This document shows positions 5,875 to 45,686 of a stretch of DNA of 64,000 nucleotides, in pieces. The notes beneath the pieces were generated by a model. It had not been told where the DNA came from, did not search any database, and worked only from the letters and a program-made list of their open reading frames with translations. The position numbers were made by a program, and so were the translations under genes. The stretch's first letter is position 1. Each line of letters opens with the position of its first letter. Where the stretch lies: assembly GCA_001311805.1 (NCBI GenBank), contig BBCA01000002.1:1-64000 (forward strand), given 5' to 3'. Origin of the DNA: Lentibacillus juripiscarius JCM 12147 (GTDB taxonomy: Bacteria; Bacillota; Bacilli; Bacillales_D; Amphibacillaceae).

Positions 5875-5899
5875 ACCACGTTCTTAACTTGTGGAAACA

Positions 5900-5928: not shown

Positions 5929-5964
5929 CAGTTGTTGTTTACATTTTTAATTGCAGGAAAAGAC

Positions 5965-6308
5965 TCAGCTTCGCACCAGACCGTGCGGATCGATGACAAT
6001 TTTTCGATGCTCCACCATCAAATTTCTTATAACCCTCCGGAGCTTGGTCCAATGAAATCAATGTTGACGGCTTTGGCAATCTGTGTTTTGCCGCTCAGAA
6101 TCGCTTTCATCAAGTCTCTATGGCAGCGCATAACAGGTGTCTGGCCGGTCACAAACGTGTGCGCTTTTGCAAAACCGAGCCCAAATCGGATTTTCAATGT
6201 CCCCTCTCTTGCATCTTTATCTGTAGCACCTGGATCACCGGTTACATAAAGGCCCGGGATTCCCAGACGACCACCTGCTATATTTTCACTGGGTACTATG
6301 ATGGCTCC
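5965..6308 (-). pseudogene. C-terminal remnant of glutathione-independent formaldehyde dehydrogenase (zinc ADH family)
   Basis: About 110 codons resemble only the C-terminus of Pseudomonas-type FdhA: AGGRLGIPGLYVTGDPG, the FGLGFAKAH stretch, HTFVTGQTPVM, then AKAVN, and after a shift EGYKKFDGGASK and IDPHGLVRS ending at 5965. The N-terminal three quarters, with the zinc and NAD sites, are absent: the fragment starts directly at the 3' end of glpP. Two shifts (near 6035 and 5990) may be sequencing indels, but no indel explains the missing N-terminus. It is a gene relic between glpP and the glpFK promoter. Confidence 0.78.
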
Positions 6309-7371: not shown

Positions 7372-7375
7372 CGGC

Positions 7376-8011
7376 TTACACTCCCGTTATTTCCAATAAA
7401 TCCCACATATCCTCCATCATATAGGTTGGACGGCATGCCATTAATTTCTCCCGGCTTTTCAGTGACCACGCAACCGCAGCTGTTCTGATTCCGGCATTCT
7501 GTCCTGCCTCGATGTCATGGGAATTGTCACCGACCATTAAAGTTGATTCCGCACTTGCCCCCAGTTCGGTCATCGCTTTTATAACGGGCTCAGGATGCGG
7601 TTTCGCACAAGTGACGTCATCTAAGGTAATAACTGTTTTGAAATAGTGGTCAAGCCCTGTCACGGCTAAGCCCATATCCACCGTCCCCCTCATCTTTGTC
7701 GTTACGATCCCGAGCTGAACATTTTCTCTATGTAATCGATCAATGGTTTCCACGACATTCGGGAATGCTTTCACATAATCATCGTGATGCTGTTTATTGT
7801 GTTCCCGGTATGTTTCAATCATGGCATCTGCCCTTCCGGAATTATACTGAAGAAATGTGTCACGCAACGGCGGTCCGATAAATTCAATCGCTTCCTCGCG
7901 GGTGAGATCTTTGCCATAGTGGTGAAACGTATGCATAAACGATTCAATGATTAATTCATTTGTGTCAATCAGTGTTCCATCTAAATCAAAGAGTACGGTA
8001 TGAATGCTCAT
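7376..8011 (-). CDS. ppaX: HPr-Ser-P dephosphorylation-linked pyrophosphatase PpaX (HAD family)
   Basis: HAD hydrolase with the nucleophile motif FDLDGTLIDTN, the motif II VTTKMRG and motif III/IV VGDNSHDIEAG. In B. subtilis it hydrolyses the pyrophosphate released when HPr kinase/phosphorylase dephosphorylates HPr, and it lies in the same cluster as hprK here. The start at 8011 (MSIHTVLF) has AAGGAAGGG eight bases upstream; a longer in-frame start has no such site. It overlaps the 3' end of yvoD by 26 bases. The frame is intact, about 211 residues. Confidence 0.92.
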   Translation of the reverse strand: MSIHTVLFDLDGTLIDTNELIIESFMHTFHHYGKDLTREEAIEFIGPPLRDTFLQYNSGRADAMIETYREHNKQHHDDYVKAFPNVVETIDRLHRENVQLGIVTTKMRGTVDMGLAVTGLDHYFKTVITLDDVTCAKPHPEPVIKAMTELGASAESTLMVGDNSHDIEAGQNAGIRTAAVAWSLKSREKLMACRPTYMMEDMWDLLEITGV

Positions 8012-8944
8012 GTGCTGTTCCCTTCCTTTTTCGATATTCAATCCGCCTCCAAATAAATGCGACGGTCATCGTGAGTATAATCGCTGTTAGAAGCCGGATC
8101 AGCAAGAGTGGCCAAACAGGGATTCCAAGCGGTATAAATACTAATGTATCTTCCACGACCGCATGACAGGATACAAGAAAGATAAGTGCCAAATACATAT
8201 CACGTTTGGACACCCCATCTTCCTCTACCGCTTGAATCATCAGTCCCGCGCCATAGGCCAAACCAATCGTCAATCCTGCCACAAGTGTCATGGTTGTATT
8301 TTTTCCATCCCCAGAAATCTAGTGAATGGTGCCAATTTGTCCGAGAAAACGTGCAGCCAGCCTTTTTCCCGCAAATACTGCATCGCGACCATTAGTGGAA
8401 TGACTATCGCTGCCAGCTGCACAATCGCTATCAGCGCTGTCTCTAAACCATGCATTGCAATTTCCAGCGAACCACTGAGGGCCGGGTCTGCTGAGGAAAT
8501 CAGGCCATACTGCGCCTGTTCTGATCCGCCATTCCAAATTAGATTAATGACAGTTGCTGAAATCAGCGCCAGTGACAGCCGGATGCCTGAGATAAGCCAC
8601 CAGCTCACCCCTGCTTTGGAGGCCACTGTTGACTCAATGAAAAGGTTGTGAGAAAAGGACATCATTACAGCCATGATGAAGACTTGTTTAACGGTAAAAT
8701 CAAACGACACAATCGCGGCAATCCCAGCATATAAGTTAAGTGCGTTTCCGAGCACGAGTGGAACTGCTGCTTCACCAGACAATCCAAACAGACCCATTAA
8801 CGGGCTGACTTTTTCAACAATCCAGGGAAGGACTGGGGTGAACTGCAGAATGGTTACGATCAACGTAATCGGAAAAATAACTTTTCCTAGTGTCCATGTC
8901 ACCTGCAGCCCTTGCTTTAACCCACGCTGTAAGATTCCATTCAA
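7986..8944 (-). CDS. yvoD: YvoD family membrane protein (nucleoside-recognition/Gate domain)
   Basis: A polytopic membrane protein of about 319 residues related to the SpmA/SpmB 'Gate' domain group. It has many hydrophobic segments, with VPLVLGNALNLYAGIAAI and LVAGLTIGLAYGAG as conserved pieces. Function unknown. A one-base loss in an A run near 8300 splits it (EKIQP, corrected EKNTTMTLVAGL). It lies between lgt and ppaX as in B. subtilis, and its end overlaps ppaX, so the cluster is probably one transcript. Confidence 0.82.
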
Positions 8945-8964
8945 GCTAATCCCTCACTTCCACA

Positions 8965-9809
8965 TCATTTTTTATTTTTCTTTGTTTTCCGGCCATCATA
9001 CCGTTTTCGCGCCTTACCGGATTTACGGCGGTACACAATCACGGCAATTACCACAGCAATCAGTGCTACAGAAATAAACTGTGCCATTCGAATCTCTGTC
9101 CCCGGTATATAAAGACTGTCCGTCCGCATTCCCTCAATAAGAACCTGCCGGCGGAATAAGCCATCAAATAGCTCAGGAACACCTCGCCACGCAATGGATT
9201 TTTGCGCCGGAGCACCAGAAGAAATAGGAACACAGCAATATTCCAAATGGATTCATAAAGGAATGTCGGGTGATACATGACACCGCCAATACACATCTGA
9301 TTCATAATAAAGTCAGGCAAATATGTATGAAAACTGTTAAACATAGACTCCGAAATCGGTCCGCCATGAGCCTCCTGATTCATAAAATTACCCCAACGTC
9401 CAATCGCCTGTCCAAGAATCAGACTTGGTGCGGCAATATCCGCCAGCTGCCAGAAGGAAACCTTTTTCACACGAGCAAACAAAATTGCAGTCAAGACGGC
9501 ACCAATTAATGCGCCATGAATGGCAATACCACCTTCCCAGATGGCAAATACATCCCACCAGGGCGCCCCCACATACCGGTCCCACTCAAAAACAACATAG
9601 TAAATCCGTGCAAAAATGATTGACACAGGAATCGCAAAAACAACTAAGTCCGTCATTAAGTCTTTCTGTAAGCCAAGCCGGTCAGATTCCTTCGTGGCGA
9701 AATACAATCCCAAAAAGGCACCCAATGCAATAATCACACCGTACCAATAGATGGACAGCGGTCCAATTTCAACAAAAACACGATCCAACGCCGGTGCACT
9801 GCAGCTCAT
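8965..9809 (-). CDS. lgt: Phosphatidylglycerol--prolipoprotein diacylglyceryl transferase
   Basis: Transfers diacylglyceryl to the lipobox cysteine of prolipoproteins at the membrane; likely clients here are CccB and the MecA-like penicillin-binding protein. The Lgt signature [13 protein letters not shown] is present, as are [10 protein letters not shown] and the C-terminal region [11 protein letters not shown]. The start at 9809 (MSCSAP) is eight bases from GGGGGAG. One base is missing near 9150 (AGRF then FIEGMR). The tail is rich in lysine. It follows hprK by 14 bases. Confidence 0.93.
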
Positions 9810-9823
9810 ACTGATCACTCCCC

Positions 9824-10756
9824 CTACTCTATATCCGATTCCTGATCAATCATCTTTGTCAGCCGCTCGGAAAATTCCTCCGCGGCATTAACACCCATTC
9901 GCTTCAATCGGAAGTTCATTGCCGCAACTTCAATGATGACAGCAAGGTTCCGCCCAGGCCGGACAGGAATCGTCGCCTTCGGAAGCCGGACATCCATAAT
10001 TTTCATCGTTTCCTCATCAAGACCAAGCCGGTCATACTGCTTATTCTCATCCCATAGTTCCAGATTGATAATCAGCGATATTTTCTTATGACTGCGAACG
10101 GAGCCAGCCCCGAACAGCGTCATGACATTAATGATTCCCAGCCCCCGAATTTCCAGCAAATGTTCAATCAATGGCGGGGAATTGCCAATAAGCTGATCAT
10201 AGTCCTCCTGATGGATTTCCACACTATCATCCGCAACAAGCCGGTGTCCCCGTTTAACGAGTTCAAGCGCCGTTTCACTTTTACCAACGCCACTCTGCCC
10301 GGTCAGCAGGACCCCAACTCCGTAAATATCCACCAAAACTCCATGGATGGCTGTAAATGGCGCAAATTTTGCCTCAAGATAGTTCGTCAGCCTGCTTATG
10401 ACACGTGTCGTTTTTCTTGGTGAATGCAAAACCGGAACTCCCGCTTCATCTGCCGTTTCCAAAATAACATCCGGAATATCCATTCCCCTGGAAATTACAA
10501 TTACTGGAGTAATGTCGCTACATAGCCGTTCCATGCGATCTTTCTTGTTTTCCTCAGTCAGGTCAAGGAAATACGCCATTTCTGTTTTGCCAATCAGCTG
10601 GACCCGTTCTTTCGGATAGTAGTGAAAATAACCGGTCATTTCAATGCCAGGCCGATGAACATCACTCGAAAGAATTTCTCTATGGATGCCATCATTGCCG
10701 GCAACAAGTGTCAAGTTAAAGTTTTTCAGTAAATCTTCTGTGCGGACTTTTGCCAT
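9824..10756 (-). CDS. hprK: HPr kinase/phosphorylase
   Basis: Phosphorylates HPr at Ser46 and reverses the reaction, setting CcpA-mediated carbon repression. The Walker [11 protein letters not shown] and the family signature [17 protein letters not shown] are visible in the C-terminal kinase domain; the N-terminal domain contains [15 protein letters not shown]. The start at 10756 (MAKVRTEDL) has GGAGG upstream and gives 310 residues, the usual length. The frame is intact. It heads the hprK-lgt-yvoD-ppaX-yvoF-glpP cluster and links to the cre sites at 5914 and 55023. Confidence 0.96.
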
Positions 10757-10847
10757 TTTTATAGAAACCTCCAATAATGCCGCCATTACTGATTTACATT
10801 GTAGCATATTTTGACGGTATGGAATATTTGAATGAGAAAAGAAAAAT

Positions 10848-10874
10848 CGCAGGGGGGGACCTGCGAGGTGGTCT
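10848..10874 (-). terminator. Intrinsic terminator after yvlD
   Basis: On the minus strand CTCGCAGGT and the following CCTGCGA pair around a run of C, then ATTTTTC. It lies directly after the yvlD stop and before hprK. Confidence 0.7.
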
Positions 10875-10876
10875 GC

Positions 10877-11233
10877 TTATGTTATTCTGTCTTTTACAAG
10901 CCGGTTCAGCAGCAGATTGATAATCGAAAGAATCACTGCTGCTACGATTGCCGTGCCAAATCCTGCGATTGCAAATGATTCATCCATGACAGCCTGTGTA
11001 ATCATCAATGTAATCGCATTAACGACAAACAGAAACAACCCAAGTGTCAGCAGTGTAATCGGTAATGTCAGGACTACGAGCACCGGCTTCACAATTGCAT
11101 TAAGAATGCCGAGGATAACGCTGGCCAGTAGCGCTGTGCCGAACCCCTCCAGATGAAATCCAGAAAACAGCCAGGCAGCTGCCATCAGAGCAACAGCGTT
11201 CAGCACAACCGAGACAGCCCACCGTAAGAGCAT
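10877..11233 (-). CDS. yvlD: Phage-holin-like membrane protein YvlD (DUF360)
   Basis: A 118-residue protein with four hydrophobic segments and the family piece GILNAIVKPVLVVLTLPIT. Homologues in Bacillus accompany PspC-domain proteins and belong to envelope-stress loci. Its start codon overlaps the stop of the upstream PspC gene, so the two are coupled. The frame is intact and a terminator follows. Molecular role unknown. Confidence 0.85.
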   Translation of the reverse strand: MLLRWAVSVVLNAVALMAAAWLFSGFHLEGFGTALLASVILGILNAIVKPVLVVLTLPITLLTLGLFLFVVNAITLMITQAVMDESFAIAGFGTAIVAAVILSIINLLLNRLVKDRIT

Positions 11234-11427
11234 CAGCGAACCTCCTCTTTGTTAGGGATAATAAAGAGACCAATAATATACGCGTAAATGGAAGCACCGC
11301 CTGCAAAGGCAAGTCCTGCGAATAGTAGACGGACAATCGTCGGATCAATATCAAAGTACTCCGCCAGTCCACCACAAATCCCTGCTATCATACGTTCCTT
11401 CCGGGATCTGTATAACCGTTTTTTCAT
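11233..11427 (-). CDS. yvlC: PspC domain envelope-stress protein (YvlC-like)
   Basis: A 64-residue protein consisting of one PspC domain: basic N-terminus (KKRLYRSRKERM), IAGICGGLAEYFDIDPTIVRL and a hydrophobic C-terminal helix. It is probably membrane-bound and acts with YvlD in the response to cell-envelope stress. Preceded by AGGGGAAA; first gene of the pair. Intact. Confidence 0.88.
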   Translation of the reverse strand: MKKRLYRSRKERMIAGICGGLAEYFDIDPTIVRLLFAGLAFAGGASIYAYIIGLFIIPNKEEVR

Positions 11428-11449
11428 ATTTTCCCCTCCCTTTCAACCC

Positions 11450-12121
11450 CTATTCACTAAAATTCCACTGATAAAACTGTTCTACTCCTAGTTGCTCCTT
11501 GGCTGCTTCTAGCAGATCATCGGATAAGGAAGGACTTTCACTGAATTGGCCAAGAATTCCGCTCGCTTGTGATTTGTGTGCCATTATCGCTTCCATCTTC
11601 CGGTCAAACGTTGGTGTCACATCATGGACGACATCCGGCTTCCCTAGATCTTGCTTATAATTGTTGGAAATCGCCTGTGCCCAGATAACAGGACGCTTTT
11701 CATGTTCCATCTGCCGAACCGCTTCCACTGCAGCAGCCCCCATCGCATTATGATCCGGGTGCACCGCATATTCCGGATAATGAGTTATCACAAGACTGGG
11801 TTCCAATTCATCCAGATGGCGCTTCAGATTTTCCGCAACTTCCTGTTTGTTTTCAAATTCCACTGTTTTATCTCGATAGCCAAGCATGCGCAGATCCAAA
11901 TCCAATTTGCTGCAGGCATTAATCAGTTCTTCTTTGCGCACAGCCGGGAGCGTTTCCCGATTCGCAAAAGCGGGGGAGCCCATGTTCCTGCCCATTTCCC
12001 CAAGTGTTCCGCACAAATACGTGACCGGCACACCCTGTTCACGAAATCTAGCAATTGTACCTGCTGCCCCGAACGATTCATCATCCGGGTGTGGAAAAAT
12101 AACCACCACATGTTTTTCCAT
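11450..12121 (-). CDS. bshB2: Bacillithiol biosynthesis deacetylase BshB2
   Basis: A zinc-dependent GlcNAc-PI deacetylase-family enzyme that removes acetyl from GlcNAc-malate and/or hydrolyses bacillithiol conjugates. Zinc motif PHPDDE is at the N-terminus and the second motif HPDH in YAVHPDHNAMG. The start at 12121 (MEKHVVVIF) is six bases after AGGTGA. About 223 residues, intact. It follows a yojF homologue, the partner found beside this gene (yojG) in B. subtilis. Confidence 0.9.
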   Translation of the reverse strand: MEKHVVVIFPHPDDESFGAAGTIARFREQGVPVTYLCGTLGEMGRNMGSPAFANRETLPAVRKEELINACSKLDLDLRMLGYRDKTVEFENKQEVAENLKRHLDELEPSLVITHYPEYAVHPDHNAMGAAAVEAVRQMEHEKRPVIWAQAISNNYKQDLGKPDVVHDVTPTFDRKMEAIMAHKSQASGILGQFSESPSLSDDLLEAAKEQLGVEQFYQWNFSE

Positions 12122-12225
12122 TCTATTCACCTGACCCTCGTTATTTGAATAAATTTCGTTAAAAACTGTTTTCGCATAGATTGCACTATGGAACCCGCGG
12201 CCGCTCTATCACCAATAGATGCAGA

Positions 12226-12580
12226 TCACTGCCCAAGCGGTGTTTCACTGATATGCAATGCAACCATCAGCCGACCTTCCCGATCATGGCCGGCGAGCAG
12301 CAGCTGTCTATCCTGATGCAGTGTCCACTCCGTCAAACCCTCTGCGTAAACCCATCCCATTTCGAGTTTGAGGCCTGCGCGAAAATGTTTTCCCATCGCC
12401 GACTATTTTAGCCTGTGAAAAATTCACTTGTGCATTTCGAACGTAAGCACCAACATTGTAGGCTTTATCGTTAAAATGGCTCGCATAGGCGCCATTGGTT
12501 GTTTCCAGATGAATATAAACATCTTTATTAATAAAACTTTCTAATAAGTGCTGTACTTTTTCGATTTCAATTGGTTCCAT
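12226..12580 (-). CDS. yojF: YojF family protein (DUF1806), partner of BshB2
   Basis: A small protein of about 117 residues with the conserved segments NKDVYIHLETTNGAY, YVRNAQVNF and, after a one-base shift near 12385, AGLKLEMGWVYAEGLTEW and LLLAGHDREGRL. The sequence has four T where three keep the frame, so this is probably an inserted T. GGGAGG lies nine bases before the start. Function unknown; its link to bacillithiol rests on its constant pairing with the deacetylase gene, 100 bases downstream here. Confidence 0.83.
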
Positions 12581-12800
12581 CTGTTTGTACCTCCCAGCGT
12601 ATACCTTCTCATTTTAGAGTATCGGAATGGCGTGGTATCGTCAAAAGTTTTGACCAAACCAGCAGATTGCTGTGCCCGGGGTTTATATTCACCAATATGG
12701 TTAATATTTCCCCTACAAGCTGAAATTCCCACCTTGCTCGGGCGACCACCAGCCGATTAAGAACAAAAGCAGCAAACCCCTAAGGCTCACTGCTATGCAC

Positions 12801-15674
12801 CTATGTCGATTCGACTTTTTCGCGTCGCTTCCTATCTTTTTCCATCCGCTTCTGGTCGCGTTCCAGTATCGGCTTTAAATACCTTCCTGTATGAGAAGCA
12901 TCCGCTGCGGCAATTTCCTCCGGTGTTCCGGTTGCAACAATTTCACCGCCGCCATCTCCGCCTTCAGGACCGAGATCAATGATGTGGTCGGCTGTTTTAA
13001 TTACATCCAGGTTATGCTCGATGATGAGGACTGTATCACCATTCTCAACAAGGCGCTGCAATACGGTCAACAGCCTGTTAATATCATCGGTATGCAAGCC
13101 TGTCGTCGGCTCATCCAGAATATAGAAAGTCTTGCCGTTTGAGCGGCGGTGGAGCTCGCTTGCCAGCTTGACACGCTGTGCTTCCCCGCCGGACAGAGTT
13201 GTAGCCGGCTGCCCCAGTTTGATGTAGCCAAGTCCCACATCATACACTGTCTGCAGTTTCCGCCTAATTTTTGGGATATTCCCGAAAAAGTCCAGTGCTT
13301 CTTCAATCGTCATCTCCAGGACATCTGCAATGCTTTTCCCTTTATATTCCACTTCCAATGTTTCCCGGTTATATCGTTTCCCATGACACACTTCACAAGG
13401 AACATACACATCCGGCAGAAAATGCATTTCAATTTTGATAATCCCATCGCCATGGCAAGCCTCACAGCGGCCGCCTTTCACATTAAAACTAAACCGGCCT
13501 TTTTTGTAACCGCGCACTTTCGCTTCGTTCGTCTGGGCAAACACATCACGGATGTTATCAAACACACCAGTATAGGTCGCCGGGTTCGAACGTGGTGTCC
13601 GGCCGATTGGTGACTGGTCAATATCAATCACTTTTTCAATGTTTCCAATCCCATTAATCCGCTGGTGTTTTCCGGGTTTAAGCTTGGCCCGGTGTAATTG
13701 TTTGGAAAGGGATTTATATAAAATATCGTTGACCAGCGTACTCTTGCCGGAGCCGGAAACACCTGTCACAACCGTCATCAATCCAACCGGGAAAGACGCA
13801 TCTACTTTTTTCAAGTTGTTTTCTTCGGCACCAATCACTTTAACTTGCTTCTTTTTATTTTGTTTCCGCCGTTTAACCGGAATCGGAATGTATCTGTCTC
13901 CGGCAAGATACTGTCCTGTCAATGATTCTTTGTTGTGCATCACGTTTTCAGGTGTGTCGCTGGCGACGATCTGACCGCCATGTTCACCTGCACCTGGTCC
14001 TATATCAATCAGATGATCTGCCTCAAGCATCGTATCTTCATCATGTTCGACCACGATCAATGTATTGTCCAGATCGCGCATCTGCTTCAGCGTATTAATC
14101 AGACGGTAATTGTCACGCTGATGCAGCCCGATTGACGGCTCATCAAGGACGTACAGCACACCTGTCAGCGCCGAGCCAATCTGAGTCGCAAGGCGGATCC
14201 GCTGTGCCTCCCCGCCTGACAGCGTTCCTGCTGAGCGGGACAGAGTCAGATAATCCAGACCAACGTTGTTCATGAAATCCAGACGGTCCGTGATTTCCTT
14301 CAAAATCATCTGAGCAATCGTCTGCTCCTTTTCGGTCAAGTCAAGTTGAACGAAAAATTCTTTCGCTTCCGTGATAGCATTATCCGTCACTTCGCTGATA
14401 TGCTTGCCATTGACCAATACGGCCAGCGCCTCTTCCTTCAGCCGATGTCCATGGCAATCCGGGCATTTTTGTGCCATGTATTTTTCCAGCAGTTCTCGAG
14501 TGAAATCGGAGGATGTTTCACGGTACCGGCGGGCGATATTATTCAGCACACCTTCAAAATAAATGTCATTCTCCCTTACATTGCCAAAATCATTGACGTA
14601 ATGGAAATGAATTTTTTCATTGCCACTCCCATATAAAATTTTCTCCATTTGCTTTTTGGAATGTCTTTCACTGGGATCGTCATGTCAATCCCATAATGGT
14701 CACAGACACTTTTCAAAAGTTCCGGGTAATAATGCGAACTAATTGGCTCCCATGCTGCAATGGCATGCTCCTTCAGTGTCTTTTCACGGTCCGGAATCAC
14801 CAGTTCCAAGTCAACTTCCAGATTGGTTCCCAAACCATCACAGGTCGGACAAGCGCCATATGGGCTATTGAAGGAAAATAACCTTGGTTCCAGCTCCCCA
14901 ATCGAAAATCCGCATATTGGACAAGCGTGATTTTCGCTGAACATGAGTTCTTCATCCCCAATCACGTCAACGATGATGTTGCCACCACCCAATCCAAGCG
15001 CGGTCTCAATCGAGTCACTGAGGCGCCCGGCAACACCGTCTTTAACGATAATCCGGTCGACAATGACTTCGATGGAGTGGGATTTATTTTTATCAAGCTG
15101 GATATCCTCTGTCACTTCACGCATTTCCCCATCGACACGAATCCGGACATACCCTTCCTGTTTCAGCTTTTCAATGGTTTTGACATGCTCACCCTTGCGT
15201 CCGGAAACAACTGGTGCAAGAATTTGCATTTTCGTCCGTTCTGGATATTGCAAAATACGGTCCACCATCTGCTGGACGGTTTGTGAACTGATTTCAATGC
15301 CATGTTTCGGACAGGTAGGCCGGCCAATGCGGGCATACAGCAGCCGCAAATAATCATAAATTTCCGTGACCGTTCCAACGGTTGAACGCGGGTTTTGCTT
15401 GTTGTTTTCTGGTCAATTGAAATTGCCGGTGACAGGCCTTCAATAGCATCTACATCCGGCTTGTCCATCTGACCCAGAAATTGCCGGGCATAGGCAGAAA
15501 GGGATTCGACATAGCGTCGCTGCCCTTCTGCGTAAACTGTGTCAAAAGCTAGCGAGGATTTGCCGGATCCGGACAAACCTGTCAGCACAACAAGTTTATT
15601 TTAGGTATCGATACATCAATATCCTGCAGATTATGTGCACGCGCACCTTGAATGGTAATTGCTTTACTCGGCAT
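12801..15674 (-). CDS. uvrA: Excinuclease ABC subunit A
   Basis: DNA-damage recognition ATPase of nucleotide excision repair. Both Walker A motifs ([18 protein letters not shown]), both ABC signatures ([18 protein letters not shown]) and the zinc-finger pairs CPIC...CPTC and CEAC...CEVC are visible. The start at 15674 ([17 protein letters not shown]) is seven bases from the uvrB stop. Three one-base losses in A runs (near 15605, 15400 and 14660) break the frame; corrected, it is a normal protein of about 957 residues. Transcribed with uvrB under LexA. Confidence 0.95.
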
Positions 15675-15681
15675 GAACAGG

Positions 15682-17664
15682 TCATCCTTCCGCTTTGAGT
15701 TCCAAAATGATATCACGAAGCTCGGCAGCTTTTTCGAAATCCAGATCTTTTGCAGCCTGCTTCATTTCTTTTTCCATGTCCTCCACCATCTTCGTTTTAT
15801 CAGCTTTGCTCAGTTCAGCAGCATCTGCTTTCTTGCTTTCGTATGATTCATTATCTTCTGATGCGACAGTTGCACGGATGACATCTCTGACTTCTTTCCG
15901 TATGGTTGTCGGGGTGATATTATATTTTTCATTATAGGCGATTTGTTTTTCACGGCGGCGGTTCGTTTCATCCATCGCCACCTGCATCGACTTTGTCACC
16001 TTGTCGGCATACATGATGACTTCCCCGTTTTCATTCCGGGCAGCCCGGCCCATTGTCTGGATAAGGGAACGCTCTGAGCGGAGGAACCCTTCCTTATCAG
16101 CATCCAAAATGGCAACCAGTGACACTTCCGGTATATCCAGTCCTTCCCTTAGCAGGTTGATTCCTACTAAAACATCATACTTGCCGACACGCAAATCACG
16201 GATAATTTCTATCCGTTCCAGTGTCTTAATTTCTGAGTGAAGGTAGGCTACTTTGATGCCAATTTCCTTCAAGTAATCGGTCAGGTCTTCCGCCATTTTT
16301 TTCGTCAGTGTCGTCACAAGTACGCGCTCATTCCGCTGGGACCGCTTATTGATTTCCTCTATCAGATTGTCAACTTGCCCGTCGATTGGGCGCACGTCGA
16401 TCTCGGGATCCAGCAGCCCCGTCGGACGGATGATTTGCTCGGTGACATCGGGTGCATGCTCCTCCTCATACGGTCCGGGCGTTGCCGAAACATAGATGAG
16501 CTGGTTGGTCGCTTTTTCAAACTCACCGAATGTCAATGGACGGTTATCCAAAGCGGACGGCAAACGAAAACCATGATCAACCAGCACTTGTTTACGTGCC
16601 TTGTCCCCATTATACATACCCCTGATCTGAGGAAGAGTAACGTGCGATTCGTCGACAACGACAAGGAAATCGTCCGGAAAGAAATCCAAAAGTGTATATG
16701 GCGTCGATCCTGGTTCCCGGAATGTCAGGTGCCGCGAATAATTCTCGATACCCGAACAGAAACCCATCTCGTTCATCATTTCAATATCATAGTTTGTCCG
16801 CTGCTCCAGCCGCTGCGCTTCAAGCAGCTTATCCTGCTCACGAAGTTCCGCTAGCTGTTCTTCCAGTTCTTTTTCGATATTTTTAATAGCCTTTTTCAGC
16901 TTTTCTTCACGGGTAACGAAGTGGGATGCCGGGAAAATAGCCACATGCTCGCGGTCCCCGACAATCTCACCTGTCAGAGCATCGACTTCACGGATTCGGT
17001 CAATTTCGTCACCGAAAAATTCAATCCGGATACAGTGTTCTTCCCTGGAGGCCGGAATAACCTCAACAGAATCCCCGCGGACTCGAAATGTGCCACGCTG
17101 GAAATCAATGTCATTCCTGGCATATTGAATGTCGACAAGATCACGTAAAAGCTGGTCGCGATCCTTTTCCATCCCCATCCTCAAAGAAAGGACCTGGCTT
17201 TTATATTCTTCCGGTGACCCTAGGCCGTAAATACACGACACACTTGAAACAATCAGCACATCACGCCGCTCAATCAAAGCAGATGTCGCCGAGTGCCGCA
17301 GTTTGTCAATTTCATCATTGATGCTTGCATCTTTTTCAATAAATGTGTCTGTTGACGGGACATACGCTTCCGGCTGATAGTAGTCATAATAGCTGACAAA
17401 ATATTCGACAGCATTATTCGGAAACAGTTCCTTAAACTCACTGTACAGTTGTCCGGCCAATGTTTTATTGTGTGCAATAACAAGTGTCGGCCGGTTAATT
17501 TCTTCTAAGACATTGGAAACCGTAAACGTTTTTCCAGTTCCGGTAGCACCAAGCAATGTCTGATGCCGCTGACCAGCTTTCACTTTTTCGACCATTTCTG
17601 CTATCGCTTCAGGCTGGTCACCGCTCGGCTCGTACTGTGCCACAAGATCAAATTTATTTTCCAA
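15682..17664 (-). CDS. uvrB: Excinuclease ABC subunit B
   Basis: Helicase-like damage-verification subunit that loads UvrC. Walker A GATGTGKT, the beta-hairpin segment [12 protein letters not shown], helicase motifs DESHV and QTMGRAARN, and a C-terminal UVR domain ([21 protein letters not shown]) are seen. I choose the TTG start at 17664 (giving [10 protein letters not shown], the family N-terminus) because GGAGG lies seven bases upstream and the likely transcription start (near 17695) leaves no leader for the upstream ATG at 17697. 660 residues, intact. Confidence 0.96.
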
Positions 17665-17873: not shown

Positions 17874-18974
17874 GATCGGTCAATATAGTTGTAAATAATT
17901 CAGTCAGCGGCCGGTCATCCAGCTGCCGATGGTACTCTTCGATATGTCTCTGATAAGCATCCTGTTTTTCCGTACTGGAAAAAAGCGGAGCAGCTCTTGT
18001 TCCGGTTTATGATGAAGATTAACCATTATGCCCACGCCAAGCCGGTTTAGTTCCCTTGCATTGACTTTTTCCTGCCCTGGCAATGGGTCGTACATGAAAA
18101 TAGGTTTCCGTTTCATCAGACACTCACTGACGGTAACACCACCCGGCTTTGTTAAAACGGCATCAGCCTCGTCGTAGAGTGCATTCATCTCCATTTTGCT
18201 GCCAATATATGAAATGGGAGTCACGTTGTTGGGCCGATTCCGGAGCAGTTCTCTGTACAACGATTCATTTTTCCCGCATAGCACGTTGTAATGAATCGAT
18301 GGTGATTTCAGCGATGACAGTAATTTGCGTATGCTTCCAGTACCCAGACTCCCGCCAGTCACCAGCACCCTGATGTTGCTATCTGTGTTTGCCTTATATT
18401 CCATTTTTCGATAGACCGGATGAATAGGAATGCCGGTTACAAAGACCCGTTCAGCCGGAATCCCTCTTCGGACAAGAAAGGCTTTCACAGCAGCTGTAGG
18501 CACAAAGTGGTAATCAATACCATCTATCCCCCAGACATCATTAATGAAAAAATCTGTATAGGCATTGACTGTAATCGACTGCAGCTGATTATTCAGCTTT
18601 AAGCGGCTCGCCAGGTTCGACGGCAATGCATGTGTGGAAACGAGTACCTGTGGATGATGTTCGCGGACAAGCCGTCTGAAGAAGGGGATAAACATCATCT
18701 CATAAAAGAAACTGCGGCGCTTCAGAGGTTTATTATTACAAGAAGCGTGCCTGTACAGCCTATCATAGAGCTCGGGAAAGAAGCGGATCCAATTCAGATA
18801 GGCGGAAGTAACCACTCTTTCGATATTTCCATAACTGTACGACAGTATATCCACTTTATCACATACCATATCAGTACGTGCCAACTGAACTGCTTCCATT
18901 AGTGCGTCGGCAGTATGGTGATGCCCTGTTTGAATTCTCATAAATGGCAAAAACAGTGCCTTATTCGAATCCAT
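17866..18974 (-). CDS. MGDG-synthase/UgtP-like glycosyltransferase (YkoN-like)
   Basis: GT28-type glycosyltransferase of about 370 residues. Near the N-terminus FMRIQTGHHHTADAL matches the diacylglycerol glucosyltransferase N-domain, and the sugar-nucleotide side shows VLVTGGSLGTGSI and LTKPGGVTVSECL. The acceptor is unknown; lipid or teichoic-acid-like substrates are possible. One T is missing near 17985; the corrected end is RPLTELFTTILTDQH at 17866. It is divergent from a metallophosphoesterase, next to a YkoP-like gene, matching the B. subtilis ykoN-ykoP-ykoQ group. That neighbourhood, more than sequence alone, supports the YkoN assignment. Confidence 0.75.
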
Positions 18975-19076
18975 CAGTTCACCTCCATCGGGAAATCATG
19001 CCTTTGTTTGGCTTCAATTACCAATGACTTGAACAGAACAGACATGCTATAATTTTTCTCAGAGAGGAGCAATGCC

Positions 19077-19912
19077 ATGATCTATTTCATCTCAGCCTGT
19101 ACCATGATTGCTTTCATTTACTTTCTGAGAAAAGCTTACAATAATACAAAAGATATACAGGTTCGCAATATAAATCCCACTTCAGATGCTGCTGGGAACA
19201 AATCCACATTATCCATCCTTCATCTATCTGACTTGCATTTAGAGCATATTTCCATAAGCCCGGCACAGCTTGCAGCCAAACTCAGGAATGAACCAATTGA
19301 CATGATCGCACTGACTGGTGACTTTCTTGACCGAAAACGGACCATCCCGAAACTGGATCCTTATCTTCGAGTATTGCAGAGTCTGGAACCTGCATATGGC
19401 GTGTATGCCGTTCTTGGCAATCATGATTATGTACTGGACGAGAACAATCTTACTGCACTAAAAACATGCTGGAAAACTATGATGTTCGCGTTTTGCAAAA
19501 CGGGAGTGATACCATTTTGGCCAATGGACACGTCATCAATATTATTGGTATTGATGATTCCAGCACAAACCGAAGTGATCTGTCAGCTGCCTATCAGCAT
19601 GTGGAAAATGGAATGAATATCGTTCTGACACATGATCCGAACATTGTACTGGAGATGCAGAATTACAAGTTTGATTATTTAATGGCCGGTCACTTCCACG
19701 GCGGACAAATTTGTTACCCAAAAGCATATCATCTTGTCAAAATGGGCAAACTTGCCCGCCAGAATGTGATAAAAGGACTGCATTATTACCGGGAAGCACC
19801 ATTCTATATTAGTGAGGGACTTGGCCAAACTGGTTTTAATATGCGTGTCGGCAGCCGGCCTGAAATCACGTTCCACCACATTGCCTTCCGTGCAGTCGAG
19901 CACGTTTCCTAG
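19077..19912 (+). CDS. Membrane-anchored metallophosphoesterase (YkoQ/YkuE-like)
   Basis: A calcineurin-like phosphoesterase behind an N-terminal membrane helix. Metal-binding motifs follow in order: SDLHLEH, LTGDFLD, LGNHDY, LTHDPN and AGHFHGGQ, the last typical of the YkuE/YpbG-type branch. One A is missing near 19463 (ALKT then MLENYDV). The substrate is unknown; family members act on phospholipid headgroups or UDP-sugars. First gene on the + strand in this window, divergent from the glycosyltransferase gene. Its stop codon TAG overlaps the stop of the convergent gene within CTAG (19909-19912). Confidence 0.82.
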
Positions 19913-20448
19913 TCATTGTACTGCTGCAAAAGGCGCTCCTTCGACATAAAGAGATAAAACGGCTGATTCCGATGTCCCGATCCGGCAATAAAGTTGATGG
20001 GCAGAAAGGTTCCTTGTTTAAACAGGCGGTAATACGTGTTCCGGATTGGAAATGCTTCAAATCCGAGTCGGTCGATGCCTTTGTGCAGCAGTGTAATACC
20101 AAGGATCCCCTTGATTTCCGGGTATTTATGATGTCCCTCAACATAGCGTGATAAGGATTGCAAATCTCTTCGTATCGTGTGGTATAAAACGTATTGCGCG
20201 CTGCAGTTCACTCTCGTCTCGCTGCGTATCGCGGATAATACGAATATTATGCAAATGAATTTTCAGCAATATATCATTTTATTTATGGTTGTCCCATCCT
20301 GCAGCACAACCGATGCGCCTTTGTATGTTGTCGGGCGTACACGGAATATGGTGTTATTCATACGGCTGTCAGGTACGTATTGCAGTCTTGTGAGCTTGTA
20401 GTAAAGCGGGTCAAGCATATACCACATATTCAATAAATAGTTCCTCAT
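19909..20448 (-). CDS. YkoP-like protein of unknown function
   Basis: About 180 residues, MRNYLLNMWYMLDPLYYKLTRL at the start (cut here by description, not sequence end), then KGASVVLQDGTTINKNDILLKIHLHN, a basic middle and IPNFIAG-like GSGHRNQ near the end. One A is missing near 20260. AAGAAGG precedes the start at 20448. I recognise it mainly from its place beside the ykoN- and ykoQ-like genes and the KGxxVVLxDGT...LLKIHLHN segment. No catalytic motif is evident. Confidence 0.65.
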
Positions 20449-20560
20449 TTGTCTGCCTTCTTTACGGAAAAGTAGCATCATTAGTTTGCTTAAATACGTT
20501 ATTCCTAATGAAGGAAATTTTACCCAAGTTCGTTAAACTAAGTGAATATCCATTCATACA

Positions 20561-20590
20561 AAACGCCTGCCGTATCTGGCAGGCGTTTTC
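20561..20590. terminator. Strong inverted repeat, probable bidirectional terminator
   Basis: ACGCCTGCC, a 6-base loop and GGCAGGCGT are flanked by AAAA and TTTT, so both strands could terminate. It lies in the 426-bp gap between the ykoP-like gene and minJ. Confidence 0.7.
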
Positions 20591-20609
20591 TGCTTCTAGT
20601 TTTCATGTT

Positions 20610-20693
20610 TCATTCCGTTGCGATTAGTTTCCCGACTGCGCCTTTTTGTACGTGACTGAACTGGTGTGCAATTTGTTCTGCTATATCATACGA
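20610..20693 (-). pseudogene. Possible C-terminal remnant of a medium-chain dehydrogenase/reductase
   Basis: An open stretch of 27 codons on the minus strand without a start ends HVQKGAVGKLIATE. The pattern of an amphipathic helix, then a VxxGxxxGKLI strand, resembles the last residues of quinone-oxidoreductase/ADH-like proteins. A stop codon lies directly upstream in frame and a terminator directly downstream. It is too short for a firm call; chance is possible. The rest of the gap 20449-20874 shows no gene. Confidence 0.28.
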
Positions 20694-20828
20694 AATTCAA
20701 GGAGCCTACCAGTGATACAGGTCACTATTTAGAGACATTTTTTTTTGTGAAAAGACAGTTCTTTCAGTTTTTGTAGTTGTAATTATGCGAATAGTTTTAT
20801 GGAACTCACGGCCCGAGAACATTAAAAA

Positions 20829-20866
20829 GTGGCAGACATAATCAGCTGTGTCTGCCGCTTTTCGAT
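20829..20866 (-). terminator. Terminator after minJ
   Basis: Minus strand GGCAGACA, 10-base loop, TGTCTGCC, then ACTTTTT. It lies just downstream of the minJ stop. Confidence 0.75.
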
Positions 20867-20874
20867 ATGAATCA

Positions 20875-22063
20875 TTATCCATGCTCCGGTATTTGTTTCA
20901 CCTGAGAGCGGCTGTTCGCCGTTATTATTCCCAGTTCATGGTGGTCCTCTTCATAAAGCGCACTTTGCACAAACCGGACCTCCCCATTTTCTCCTAGGAT
21001 TTCCAGTTTAAAAAAACGCTCCGCTTTCCTGCAGTGCATAATAATATGCTTCCATATCATTTATCTTCGTTCCATTCACTTTCGTTACCGTTTCTCCTGC
21101 CACAATACCCAAACGATCAGCTGGCGTGCCGGGAATAACTGCCAGCACCTTGATTCCGCGTTCATTTTTATGGAAAAAAGGGACTTTCGCCCGGTCTGTA
21201 AGGCGATGTCTGTAATTAATATATTCCCTTCCGATGATTCCAGTTAAAATAGCCACCAATGACAGCCAGCCGGCATAAATACTGCCGACAGCCATGAATA
21301 GTACTGCCATAGATAGGATGAGCACCCGTCTCGCAATTGCCCCGGCGGCTTTTTGGGAAGTGTTCCTTGAACGGCATGATCAAATCCAATCACAAACGGA
21401 ACAAGTGCAAGGCTGTACACCTCTCCATTTATTGAAAAATACGGCCAAATGGTGCAAAAGCTGTGATGGGGCCTGCCGGGATCAGGACAAAAAGGAATCA
21501 GACTGACTTTTTCAATGGTGCACACCTATCCAATACCCACGGCGTCCAAGCTGCAGTTCCGGATATGTCCGGGTCCGCCCGCTGCGGGTAAGCAATAATG
21601 CCTCAGCTATTAATAGTATTGCCAGCAGTATACTTAACCCCACAAAATTTGCAGATGATGAGAAGGTTATATCGGTAAATGTCTGGTTTTCGAACACAAA
21701 TGGAAGAAATAATAAAAGCAAATAACTGATCCCAACTATATATACCGGTGAAAGCAGTGTGAAACGAAGCGATAGACTTAACAGAACGGTTACAATGGCC
21801 AGCATCCAAATTGTCTCCCTGGAAAAGACCAGCCCCACTCCAACAGCCAGCATCGATAAAAACAATCCGAAACCAACGGACAAAACCCATGTATGCCGCC
21901 ATTCCACAAATGGGTCAAACAGCTTCAGACCAAAATCCCTCCGCTCTCTTCGGATCCGTTTAAGTCCGGCTAGAACAACCAGAATAACCGTCCAGTAAAC
22001 AAGGGGATTAAGAAAGAATCTGCCTAACCCTTTCCATAATTCGATAAGCCATGTCTCTGCCAT
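20875..22063 (-). CDS. minJ: Division-site determinant MinJ (membrane PDZ protein)
   Basis: A protein of about 395 residues with several transmembrane segments followed by a C-terminal PDZ domain (VLAVIPGTPADRLGIVAGETVTKVNG). In B. subtilis MinJ bridges DivIVA and MinD and restricts division to midcell. The order ctpB-minJ downstream of ftsEX matches B. subtilis. At least five one-base shifts (near 21510, 21490, 21430, 21345 and 21025), mostly in homopolymers, break the frame; the order of domains is uninterrupted after correction. The start at 22063 (MAETWLIELW) follows GGAAGGTGA. Confidence 0.83.
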
Positions 22064-29038: not shown

Positions 29039-31555
29039 TTATTTGCCATGGCAGTGTTTATATTTTTTCCGCTGCCGCACGGGCATGGGTCATTCCGGCC
29101 AGTGGTCTCCGTCTTCACGTAAGGTTTGCGTGATTTTTTCTTTTCTTCCTCTTCCTGTTCGCCAGATACTGCCTGTGTATTTTGGCTACTTCCTGCCGCT
29201 GCAGATTATCCCTGATTTGGGCTTTCATCACATACTTGGCTACTTCCTCTTCAATTTCAACAATCATTTCTTCAAACATCTGGAAGCCTTCAGCCTGATA
29301 TTCCTGCAATGGATCATTTTGGCCATACGCACGCAAGTGAATACCCTGGCGAAGCTGATCCATCTGATCGATGTGATCCATCCATTTAGTGTCGACCGTT
29401 CGCAGTACAATTACTTTTTCAAATTCACGCATTTGCTCTGGTGACAGTTCCTGTTCTTTTTCATTATAGCGATGGTTGACAATACCCATAATAAAGTCAA
29501 TCATTTCGTCCGGCTCTTTGCCTTTAATATCATCGACTGAAATATCATCCGGGTTCAAGAGATTGCCATGCACATACTCAATGATGGAATCCAGTTCCCA
29601 GTTTTCGTCCAGTTCATCCTGTGTATTCGCCTGTACAACACGCTTAAGCGTAGACCGAATCATACCCTCGACAATTTCACGTAGATCTTCAGTGGCTTCA
29701 ATAACATCAAACCGCTGCTTGTATATGATTTCCCGCTGCTGACGAAGAACGTCATCATAGGATAGAACGGTTTTACGCGCATCAAAGTTGTTACCTTCCA
29801 CCCGCTTTTGTGCGGATTCCACAGCCCTTGATACCATCTTGCTTTCAATCGGCTGGGAATCGTCCATGCCAAGCCGTTCCATCATCGATCGCATATTGTC
29901 GGATCCGAATCGGCGCATCAGGTCATCTTCCATTGACAAGTAAAACTGCGTCACCCCTGGATCACCCTGACGCCCGGAACGTCCGCGCAGCTGATTATCG
30001 ATCCGGCGTGACTCATGGCGCTCAGTTCCAATGACGGCCAGACCGCCCAGCTCTGTCACACCATCACCGAGCTTAATATCGGTACCACGACCGGCCATGT
30101 TCGTTGCAATCGTAACCGCACCCCGCTGTCCGGCATTTTCAATAATTTCTGCTTCCCGGTAATGGTTTTTAGCGTTAAGGACGTTATGTGGAACACCTGC
30201 TTTTTTCAGCATCTTGGCAATCAATTCCGACGTCTCGACTGCGACCGTCCCGACCAGAACAGGCTGTCCTTTTTCATGCCGTTCTTTAATATCATCAACG
30301 ACGGCACGGAATTTCCCTTCGATTGACTTGTAAATCATATCCGCTTTGTCGTCCCGGATAATCGGCTTGTTCGTCGGAATAGCAATAACATCCATGTTGT
30401 AAATGTTACGGAATTCCTCTTCTTCTGTTTTAGCTGTACCGGTCATCCCGGAGAGCTTCTGATACATGCGGAAGAAATTCTGGAACGTAATCGATGCCAG
30501 GGTCATACTTTCGTTCTGGATCTGCAGCCCTTCTTTTGCTTCAATTGCCTGGTGCAGCCCGTCACTGTAGCGGCGGCCTTTCATCAGACGACCGGTGAAT
30601 TGGTCAACGATGACAACCTCGCCTTCTTCAACAACATAATCAGTATCACGCTGCATCGACACGTGGGCTTTTAATGCTTGGTTAATATGGTGGGTGAGTG
30701 ATACATGATTCAAGTCAAACAGATTTTCAATACTGAAATAGCGCTCAGCCTTGTTGATGCCTTCTTCCGTCAGCTGGACACCTTTCGTTTTTTCATCATA
30801 CGTATAATCCGTCTCACGGCTTAAAATCCGAACAAACCCATTTGCCTGCTGGTACATCGATGCCGATTTTTGGGCAGAACCTGAAATGATCAGTGGTGTA
30901 CGTGCCTCGTCAATCAGGATCGAGTCCACCTCGTCAATAATGGCAAAGTTCAGCGGGCGCTGCACCATCTGTTCTTTGTATAGAACCATGTTATCACGCA
31001 AATAGTCAAAGCCGAACTCGTTATTCGTGCCGTACGTAATGTCACTATAATAGGCTTCCCGCTTTTCTTCTTTCGTCATGCCATTGCCGTTAAGACCGAC
31101 AGTCAGGCCAAGAAAATTGTACAGTTCACCCATATCCTTCGCGTCACGACCGGCCAGGTAATCGTTGACCGTAATAATATGGACACCTTTTCCGGATATG
31201 GCGTTCAAATAAGCCGGCATGGTGGATGCCAATGTTTTCCCTTCCCCTGTTTTCATTTCGGCGATATTGCCTTCATGTAATGCTACTGCACCTGTCAGCT
31301 GAACAGGGAACGGACGCATGCCCAGCACACGTTTCGCACCTTCTCTCACCACCGCATAGGCTTCAGGAAGCAAATCATCAAGTGACTCACCATTTGCATG
31401 ACGTTCTTTAAATTCTTCTGTTTTATTTTTAATTCATCATCTGACAATTTTTCTATATCAGGTTCCAGCGTTTCTATCTGATCGACTTTTTTTCTGTAAA
31501 CGGTTCAGTTGTTTTTTATTTCCATCCCCAAAATCCTGGTCAGTAATCCAGCCAT
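29039..31555 (-). CDS. secA: Preprotein translocase ATPase SecA
   Basis: Motor of Sec-dependent export. Walker A MKTGEGKT, Walker [10 protein letters not shown], helicase motif RGTDI and [10 protein letters not shown] and the C-terminal zinc motif CPCGSGKKYKHC are seen. The start at 31555 ([10 protein letters not shown]) follows GAGGAG. Three shifts lie in the first 60 codons (near 31525, 31490 and 31430) and two at the 3' end (near 29130 and 29058), all in homopolymers; the stop after correction is at 29039. Normal length, about 838 residues. prfB follows. Confidence 0.95.
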
Positions 31556-31808
31556 TTAAAACGCTCCTCATATGATTTCAGCAAATATGCAATATCTTAT
31601 TATAACCCAATACTAATCATAACGCATCTGTTCTTCTGTTACAACTGATGAACACGGTAATAGACTGTCGAAACTTCCCTGTCCTGTGTGTTCACAGGCT
31701 AAAACCGTCACGTCCTGTGCGTTGAAAAATTGAAAGAACAGTCCGGGGATGAACTGTTCTTTCGAGTGAGGATTATAGAGGCTTACATGGAGGTAATGAA
31801 AAGGAAGC

Positions 31809-31964
31809 TTATGTAAGTGAATAGGTATGTGACTGCTCTTTTTGCTTCCTGTCCAATTCGGCAAGCTGGCGATTGGTCGAGGCGATGATCGCCACTAACT
31901 GTGCAATGGTCTGTTCATGCTGCTCGACCTTTCTCACCAGTTCATCATACTTGCATTCACTCAC
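31809..31964 (-). CDS. Small coiled-coil protein of unknown function
   Basis: A 51-residue open frame starting with GTG at 31964, MSECKYDELVRK at the N-terminus and ending HTYSLT. AAAGGAG lies nine bases before the start. The middle is a predicted short amphipathic helix (DELVRKVEQHEQTIAQL), rich in Glu and Gln. It lies alone between degU and secA, where B. subtilis has the flagellar and hpf genes. I do not recognise it; the ribosome-binding site and biased composition suggest it is real. Confidence 0.6.
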   Translation of the reverse strand: MSECKYDELVRKVEQHEQTIAQLVAIIASTNRQLAELDRKQKEQSHTYSLT

Positions 31965-32275
31965 ATAAATTGCTCCTTTCATCTAGTGTGATTCATTTAT
32001 AGCACGAAACCGGCAAAGAGCGCCAATTGCTATTTTTGCTTTTCAGCTTGCCATTCGACATAATTTTATGGCGAAAACACAATTTTCGACGCATCCGTAT
32101 GTATAATTCGTGAAAAATAGCGAATGAATAAACTTCAAAATTAAAAATTAGTATTCTGTGCGACAAGTTTCGACAAAACAGGTAGTCAACTGGTACGAAA
32201 GCTGATATGGCATGGTTAGGAAGGACTTTGGAATAACATTAATCCGTTCTTTCCGTGGAAAAGAGGGGCTAAAAA
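31965..32275. other. Intergenic stretch between degU terminator and small ORF
   Basis: AT-rich and without a convincing open frame on either strand. It is the position of degV, comF, flagellar and hpf genes in B. subtilis; none of these is recognisable here, even as fragments. Confidence 0.6.
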
Positions 32276-32312
32276 TAAGGAAGGCGATCCCTCGTTCACA
32301 GGGGTCGCCTAA
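32276..32312 (-). terminator. Terminator after degU
   Basis: Minus strand AGGCGACCCC, 9-base loop, GGGATCGCCT, then TCCTTATTTTT. It starts about 16 bases after the truncated degU coding region. Confidence 0.78.
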
Positions 32313-32327
32313 TCCAATCATGTATGT

Positions 32328-32944
32328 TTAACTGACATGATTTTTAACAGTTTTTCACTGATGTACAAAGTTTCTGCAACCGCGCGATTGCTTTTCCCGT
32401 CCGCAAGCAGCTGAAGCACTTCACATTCGCGGCTTGTTAAGAGATGCAGCGGTTTGTGATAGCTGATGCTTGGCTCGGCCACACCGGTACTGGCGGGGAC
32501 GCTTTCTCCGGCAAGGCGTCGGTATTCCTTGACAAGATTGTGCGTTACTTTCGGATGAAGATAGGATCCGCCTTCACGGACGACTTTAATCGCTTCAATT
32601 AAAGAATCTGAATCCATCTCTTTCAGCAAGTAGCCCTGCGCACCCGTTTTCAGTGCATGCGTGACATAACTTTCATCATCATGGATGGACAAAATAATCA
32701 CTTTCAAGTCAGGAAACTGCTTTATGAGGTCTGCTGTTGCCTGCACCCCATTCAGCTGCGGCATGTTAATATCCATCAGGACGACATCAGGGTTATATTC
32801 TTTAACAAGATTGGCAGCAACATACCCATCATCCCCTTCTGCCACAACCTCAAACGACGGTTCAAATTCCAAAATCCGTTTTACCCCTTCACGAAATAAT
32901 TTATGATCATCAATCAGTAGAATTTTTGTCTGTTTCTTTGTCAT
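32328..32944 (-). CDS. degU: Two-component response regulator DegU, 3'-truncated
   Basis: NarL-type regulator of exoenzymes, competence and motility in Bacillus. The receiver domain is complete: [12 protein letters not shown], the phosphoacceptor Asp in [16 protein letters not shown] and the Lys in LLKEM. The LuxR-type HTH begins normally ([18 protein letters not shown]) but stops inside the recognition helix. Correcting a lost A near 32358 gives [10 protein letters not shown] and then a stop; uncorrected it ends [13 protein letters not shown] at 32318. The next 25-30 residues of the family are not encoded downstream in any frame. DNA binding is probably impaired. Start at 32944 after GGGAGGAAG. 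Confidence 0.88.
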
Positions 32945-32980
32945 CAGCTAACTTCCTCCCAAATGATCACTCTATTAGAG

Positions 32981-33131
32981 GTTGTTCAAAAAATCCGGTA
33001 AAAATGACACTTCGAATTTCTTCGTTGGCTTGCTTTTCCGTTGCTCATGTATTAATTTGCATACACTTCGCTACTCAAAGCTGCGCCGCCTTGAAATTCT
33101 TGGTCCTTTTTACCCTCCTATTTGAACACGC
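32981..33131. repeat. MITE-like palindromic element between degU and degS
   Basis: About 150 bp with imperfect terminal inverted repeats: TGTTCAAAAAATCCGGTAAA at one end and, on the other strand, TGTTCAAATAGGAGGGTAAA at the other (about 20 of 26 positions agree over the full arms). The interior resembles intergenic sequence I recall from other Bacillaceae genomes. It has no coding capacity. It widens the degS-degU gap to 290 bp, where B. subtilis has a short gap. Confidence 0.65.
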
Positions 33132-33234
33132 ACTATTAAAAAATTTCACCCTATTACATTTCTATGAAAATACTGGTCTCTTGTCTTTTTCGATTTATAG
33201 TAAGTATACCTTATCTGCTGGCTAATTGTGAATA

Positions 33235-34373
33235 TTAAGAGAGGTTATACGGTACATGAATCACAATCGTTGTCCCTTCACCAATCATTGAGTTGATGGA
33301 CAATGTGCCATTGAGCATTTCCACCCGTTCACGCATACCGATTAAGCCGAAAGACTTTTCCCGTTTTATTGCAGGATCAAACCCTTTACCATTATCTTTA
33401 ATCACCAACGATATGGTGTTCGTTCCTATTTCAAGTTTCACTTTAACCAGTGAGGCGTCTGCATGCTTAATGGCGTTCTGAAGTCCCTCCTGCATAAGAC
33501 GGAAAAATGCAATTTCGTATTCCTGGCTTACCCGCTGCTCTTTGCCAATTGGTTTGAATTCAATTTGAATATCATTGTAATCAGAAATCGTTGCGATATA
33601 TTTTTGATTGTCGGCACTAACCCCAGGTCGTCCAGTGCCATTGGCCGGAGATCATAGATGATGCGCCGGACCTCATACAAGGATGACCGAATCATTTTCC
33701 GGACGCTTTTAATTTCACCAATCGTTTCATCAGTCGTTCCATGGCGGAAGGTTTTGTCAACCAGTTCAGACCGGAGCAAAATGTTAGCAAGCATTTGTGC
33801 AGGACCGTCATGGATTTCTCTGGATATTCTCCTGCGCTCATCTTCCTGAGCTTCAATAATTTTTAATCCGAATTCCTGTTTTTCCCTGGCTTCCTCAATC
33901 ATCTCATTTACCTGTCTGAGATCATCGTTCAGGTATGTAAGGATAACGGATATTTTACTCGCCAGTCCCTCTGACCGTGCAACCGTCTGGTCCAATGTAA
34001 CTAGCCGCCGCTCCAGTTCATCACGCTTATCCCGCAAAATTTTCTCTTCCTGGCGAAGCATGGCAAGCCGTGTCTGCATCGCATGTGTATTTTCGTACAC
34101 TTCGCGAATCTCACTTTCCGAATAGCGGTCAAAATACTTGCTGACTTCTGACAGGCGCTGTCTGGAAAAACGGACTTTCTGTTCCAGTGCGTCCCCGTCA
34201 TTAATATGTTTTGTAACCTTTTCTTTCGTTTCATTCAGTTCTATTTGCAGCTGCTCATGTTCACTGCGCGCTTCCTCACTGATATGAAATATTTCATCCT
34301 TGCTTTTTTGAACAACATCAATCATTTCCTCAACAACAAAATCCAATGCCTTTTCTTCCAGCTTTTGTGTCAT
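33235..34373 (-). CDS. degS: Two-component sensor kinase DegS
   Basis: Cytoplasmic NarL-group histidine kinase that phosphorylates DegU. The long N-terminal coiled coil (about 1-170, sensor part) is followed by the HisKA_3 box RRISREIHDGPAQ with the phosphorylated His, then the ATPase domain with EGLQNAIKHADAS, DNGKGFDP, FGLIGMRERV and GEGTTIVIHVP. One A is missing near 33612. The protein is otherwise complete, in contrast to its partner DegU. The order degS-degU is kept, but a palindromic element lies between the genes. Confidence 0.93.
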
Positions 34374-45499: not shown

Positions 45500-45686
45500 A
45501 AAAAACTTTAAATGCGTGTTCCAATAGGATTTAGTCGAAGGTCCTCCATCGAAGTATCATTTCTATCGGACTTTTTGAACAATCTCTTTAATGAAGGCTG
45601 TTTTCTAAAAGATCGTTGCTATTTGCAATATTTAAGGATGAAGCCCTACTTAACAATTTATATAAAACTGCGACGTAACTGCTACG
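45500..45686. other. Intergenic stretch with repeat-like pieces
   Basis: Contains CGGACTTTTTGAACAA, like the end of the element at 32981, and AAGGCTGTTTTCTAAAAG, related in reverse to AACAGCCTTTTAGAAAAC at 3363. It is part of a 495-bp gap with no recognisable gene, filled by fragments of several intergenic repeats. Confidence 0.5.

Follow-up and report, generated by a model that had tools for sequence, protein, structure and literature searches.

Lentibacillus juripiscarius JCM 12147 carries a DegU response regulator that ends inside its DNA-binding helix-turn-helix, after the residues TVKNHVS. This truncation is real, and it very likely marks one end of a chromosomal deletion that fused degU, at codon 205, with the end of hpf. 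The analysis covers a window of 64,000 nucleotides (assembly GCA_001311805.1, contig BBCA01000002.1, positions 1 to 64,000). The original observation of a truncated degU is confirmed, and its interpretation is partly supported; judged by L. cibarius, it overlooked that the truncation would be the edge of a larger deletion, one that took genes for DNA uptake, the flagellum and ribosome hibernation. Gene loss through deletion is well known; new here are these specific endpoints and the fact that hpf is likely lost too. In the literature searched, including the accessible part of PMC6639625, no report of a DegU truncation in L. juripiscarius was found.

The shortened end of DegU

The gene and its upstream neighbourhood comprise the following features.

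32328-32944, minus strand: truncated degU, containing the whole receiver domain, a linker and the beginning of the GerE helix-turn-helix; it ends TVKNHVS plus TAA if the frame break in the A-run is an error (domains by Pfam on P0001)
32971-33143, no strand assigned: multi-copy, MITE-like repeat of ~160 bp with imperfect inverted arms, between degS and degU
33235-34373, minus strand: degS, with the DegS and HisKA_3 domains in the first piece, the ATPase domain in the second and a frame break near 33605

As deposited, the degU open reading frame runs from 32318 to 32944 on the minus strand, encodes 208 amino acids and stops inside the LuxR/GerE helix-turn-helix. The reading frame breaks by one base within the A-run at 32351-32355, which shifts the last ten residues: residues 1-198 agree exactly with P0001, and the final ten are out of register. 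The adjacent frame continues to TVKNHVS and then meets TAA at 32328-32330. P0001, a separate L. juripiscarius record (from another strain, or from the same strain resequenced), lacks the frame break and encodes a DegU of 205 amino acids with the identical TVKNHVS end. The frame break is probably sequencing noise, since similar breaks are common nearby, including in genes as essential as secA. As the entire explanation of the short protein it was rejected, because the neighbouring frame and P0001 both stop after TVKNHVS. The original statements that the helix-turn-helix ends at about this string, and that a one-base indel cannot restore the rest, hold.

The full-length proteins of L. lipolyticus (232 amino acids) and L. 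cibarius (230 amino acids) both extend 28 residues past the truncation point. These 28 residues were not found in the window, where the full L. cibarius DegU finds a match only to residue 204 (E up to 1e-5), in agreement with the 25-30 residues that had been described as not encoded. The comparison with close relatives proposed at the outset was also run, and a truncation common to them was rejected. P0001 is the sole DegU shorter than 226 amino acids among the best 120 of 5021 homologues, the other 119 having at least 226. In the family, DegU is matched in 156 of 159 genomes, and in at least 150 of these the frame is open over 229 codons or more.

The part of DegU that is kept is 90% identical to that of L. 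lipolyticus and 86% identical to that of L. cibarius. Pfam on P0001 finds Response_reg complete (positions 1-111 of 111), as had been claimed for the receiver domain, and GerE incomplete (positions 2-39 of 57); the receiver residues D12, D13, D58 and K108 are invariant across 11 aligned sequences. The protein resembles the DegU of the DegS-DegU system (NarL/FixJ family, GerE/LuxR helix-turn-helix) in its complete receiver, its conserved acidic residues and its place next to degS. It differs in that the known DegU has a complete GerE helix-turn-helix of four helices, whereas the one in the window stops at profile position 39 of 57 and is followed by an hpf-like terminator.

DegS, described earlier as complete, is interrupted in the window by the frame break near 33605, which is probably a sequencing error; the DegS, HisKA_3 and ATPase domains are all present once its two pieces are combined. 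Such interruptions are frequent here: when 15 other genes were matched to the L. cibarius region, 8, among them degS and secA, proved to be split over at least two frames (window 14121-37257; ORFs of at least 110 amino acids with an identity of at least 55%, degU and three opposite-strand matches left out). Of these 15 genes, degS, secA and one ABC ATPase were checked by name, and the remaining names are in part those we assume. With so many frame breaks in 14121-37257, any pseudogene reading from the window needs a second record.

The repeat at 32971-33143 is absent from the degS-degU spacer of L. cibarius. Of 60 family genomes sampled, 30 contain matches to it, with a maximum of 24 per genome, and a 39-base piece of it recurs at 45549-45587. 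It looks like a non-coding, MITE-like mobile repeat, and it may separate degU from the degS message.

The missing block between degU and secA

A stretch of ~12 kb with 14 genes separates degU from secA in L. cibarius: degV, comFA, comFC, yvyF, flgM, flgN, flgK, flgL, a DUF6470 gene, fliW, csrA, fliS, fliT and hpf. Of these names, comFA follows from position and helicase domains; comFC and fliT come from matches under the cut-off, to ComF for the former and a weak one for the latter. None of the 14 genes is matched in the window (E up to 1e-4), in which the secA ATG follows the DegU stop after 772 bases. The DNA on both flanks has the order and orientation of L. cibarius and the interior is missing, the arrangement of a deletion allele. 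The features on this side of degU are as follows.

29042-31555, minus strand: secA, the first gene recognised downstream of degU; in the window it is spread across three frames
31809-31982, minus strand: ORF of 57 amino acids upstream of secA, alignable to the same place in L. cibarius, with no Pfam match
31986-32175, minus strand: former hpf-secA spacer, aligning to the DNA behind L. cibarius hpf (69% of 193 columns, E 9e-15)
32270-32309, minus strand: stem-loop and T-rich tail like the hpf terminator of relatives (L. cibarius match weak, E 1.2)
32328-32333, minus strand: proposed deletion junction, the Ser codon AGT and, next to it, a stop codon that may come from hpf; the AGT fits degU codon 205 and a Ser-final hpf, and the endpoints are inferred

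Homology of the window to L. cibarius degU runs to GTCAGT (L. cibarius position 5866). The stem-loop begins 18 bases past the DegU stop and aligns at L. cibarius 15806, a weak match when taken alone (E 1.2), and V. doumboii has a similar one. The terminator originally placed at 32276 is present as a stem-loop at about 32270-32309; what needs correcting is its identity, as it resembles the hpf terminator of relatives. Homology to the hpf-secA spacer resumes from L. cibarius 15899 (E 9e-15) and from 17847 (E 1e-57). The 18 bases after the DegU stop found no match in any relative compared, and with the terminator match being weak as well, the hpf side of the junction is not fixed to the base.

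The junction itself can be read in two ways at once. HPF ends in Ser in 10 of 12 aligned relatives (nine Asn-Ser, one Ser-Ser) and in Asn-Ala in the other two, the V. doumboii hpf ending in Ala rather than Ser. Since HPF is mostly Ser-final, AGT-TAA in the window is readable as Ser205 of degU and as the Ser-stop of hpf together. At such a Ser codon common to both genes (CAGT or similar), microhomology or another kind of illegitimate joining would have brought degU and hpf together, and the stop and terminator now behind degU would be those of hpf. In L. cibarius coordinates the proposed deletion spans 5867-15730, or 9,864 bases. The same event would have removed hpf and the comF genes from the locus. 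The ancestor may have lost its flagella beforehand, in which case the last step would have been ~4 kb instead of ~10 kb. Copies of hpf, comF or flagellar genes could lie elsewhere in the genome, of which the 64-kb window was read.

Several further observations concern the surrounding DNA. A search with window 31300-33100 for plasmids gave no match. L. cibarius has an IS110-type transposase gene between hpf and secA (L111:2445-3758), near the deletion end of the window, and the DNA around this gene has no counterpart in the 772-base gap between degU and secA. Four L. cibarius genes upstream of uvrB are likewise unmatched in the window, which has other ORFs at 17904-20878; two of the four presumably resemble cytochrome oxidase subunits, and one nitrite reductase.

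hpf and flagellar genes in related genomes

The probable loss of hpf is odder than the DegU truncation, because the HPF C-terminal domain is matched in 159 of 159 family genomes and the flagellum-less relatives that were read keep both a full DegU and hpf. FlhA is unmatched in 10 of the 159 genomes. DegU is present in eight of the ten, always in an open frame of 234 codons or more, so that flagellar loss alone as the cause of a shortened DegU was rejected. The degU-hpf interval was read in seven of these eight (G151 left out). In six of them (G003, G047, G050, G054, G057 and G155) the flagellar genes of the interval are gone or fragmentary, as the late flagellar genes are in the window; unlike the window, these genomes keep full-length degU, degV, comFA, comFC and hpf. 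In the seventh, G084 (L125), FlhA has no match, yet the flagellar block still stands between degU and hpf, which speaks against a simple picture. The best flgK match of G084 covers 358 of 508 residues, which may represent an intermediate of flagellar decay.

Searches of a protein database with HPF and with FliF each scored ~8000 candidates sharing most words and listed 120, some of them without a species name. No entry named L. juripiscarius appeared among the best 120 matches listed for HPF or among those for FliF; in both cases L. cibarius, the query species, ranked first and L. lipolyticus second. P0001 is the sole sign that the L. juripiscarius proteome is represented in this database. One HPF entry without a species name, P0130, looks closer in the alignment to the HPFs of Virgibacillus than to those of the two sister species. 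These listings support, but do not prove, loss of the two genes from the L. juripiscarius genome. As to motility of L. juripiscarius, no statement was found in the literature searched, including what was accessible of PMC6639625; the species description of 2005 was outside the search.

Fate and origin of the short DegU

The DNA-binding domain of DegU aligns without gaps to the Listeria DegU structure 7X1K. According to the paper on Listeria DegU (PMC9263151), the recognition helix, 15 residues long, is helix 9; ~64% of the dimer interface comes from helix 10, and the DNA-binding domain binds DNA less well with each of the changes R212A, T213D and V217D. With the shared KNHVS string as the register, L. 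juripiscarius lacks helix 10 entirely, the last part of helix 9 and the equivalents of R212, T213 and V217; at the beginning of the recognition helix, those of K194, K197 and N198 are retained. Given the missing equivalents and the missing end of helix 9, the short DegU has very probably lost DNA binding and, going by the structural literature, would be unable to dimerise through helix 10 or make full contact with DNA. That a receiver dimer and the remaining half of the helix-turn-helix still bind DNA is extremely improbable: the three retained residues speak for it, but the equivalents of R212, T213 and V217, where substitutions lowered binding in Listeria DegU, are gone together with the end of helix 9. 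DegS would then be uncoupled from the DegU regulon, and the receiver would at most accept phosphate. The original prediction had suggested that DegU may not bind DNA or that the partner has changed function; the former is now very probable, and the latter may or may not hold.

The retained stretch of DegU shows no acceleration of change. Changes found only in P0001 number three, versus six found only in P0002, with branches of 0.027 and 0.073, respectively. The dN of the kept degU to three outgroups is 0.098-0.103, against 0.102-0.130 for L. cibarius; dN alone was used, dS being saturated or not estimable in many pairs. Either the event is recent or the receiver is still in use. The second possibility would agree with a selected rewiring, compatible with the deletion, in which a receiver-only DegU accepts DegS phosphate or interacts with a partner, acting as a sink or a single-domain regulator. 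This is unlikely: the conserved receiver residues, the few P0001-only changes and a dN no higher than in L. cibarius argue for it, but a recent event yields the same pattern.

A collapsed or mis-joined contig, which would have made a false degU end in an error-rich window, seems very unlikely. The many split genes, secA among them, give it some ground, and the adjacency of degU and secA was observed in the window alone, P0001 covering the end of DegU and not the DNA downstream. However, P0001 has the identical end without the frame break, homopolymer slips do not delete ~10 kb, and both flanks keep the L. cibarius order and orientation. A laboratory origin is a variant of the deletion and compatible with it: the event may have been selected during cultivation of the type strain, removing DegU output or costly traits. 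In PMC7642357, BSP1, a natural isolate of B. subtilis, gave degU mutations in clones from all five populations when cultured, including the helix-turn-helix changes I186M and H200Y and one early stop. As in L. juripiscarius, the DNA-binding part was altered or the protein stopped; those changes are point changes and an early stop, whereas here a multi-gene deletion is proposed. The BSP1 mutants make a laboratory origin in the type strain a serious possibility, and the rest of degU is undecayed, as expected of a young event. Nevertheless, such an origin is doubtful on the whole, as the absence of an L. juripiscarius-named FliF from the best 120 matches listed hints at a loss beyond one deletion, and the flagellar part of the interval has also been lost in several relatives.

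The deletion that joined degU to hpf, which we favour, invites a wider and rather improbable reading. The source looks like a salt-loving fish-sauce bacterium, and L. juripiscarius would be naturally hpf-null and comF-null, with DegS feeding a receiver-only DegU whose mRNA ends in the hpf terminator and which is kept as a phosphate sink or partner-binding regulator, the loss of ribosome hibernation being tolerated or even favoured in concentrated brine. If the proposed deletion holds, the species would be a natural knock-out of DegU output, ComFA/ComFC and long HPF; the life of a halophile without ribosome dimerisation would become directly testable, as would the question whether a receiver stripped of its DNA-binding part is still retained by its kinase. 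Otherwise, the locus would add to the known examples of deletions that remove genes, and would counsel care with type strains.
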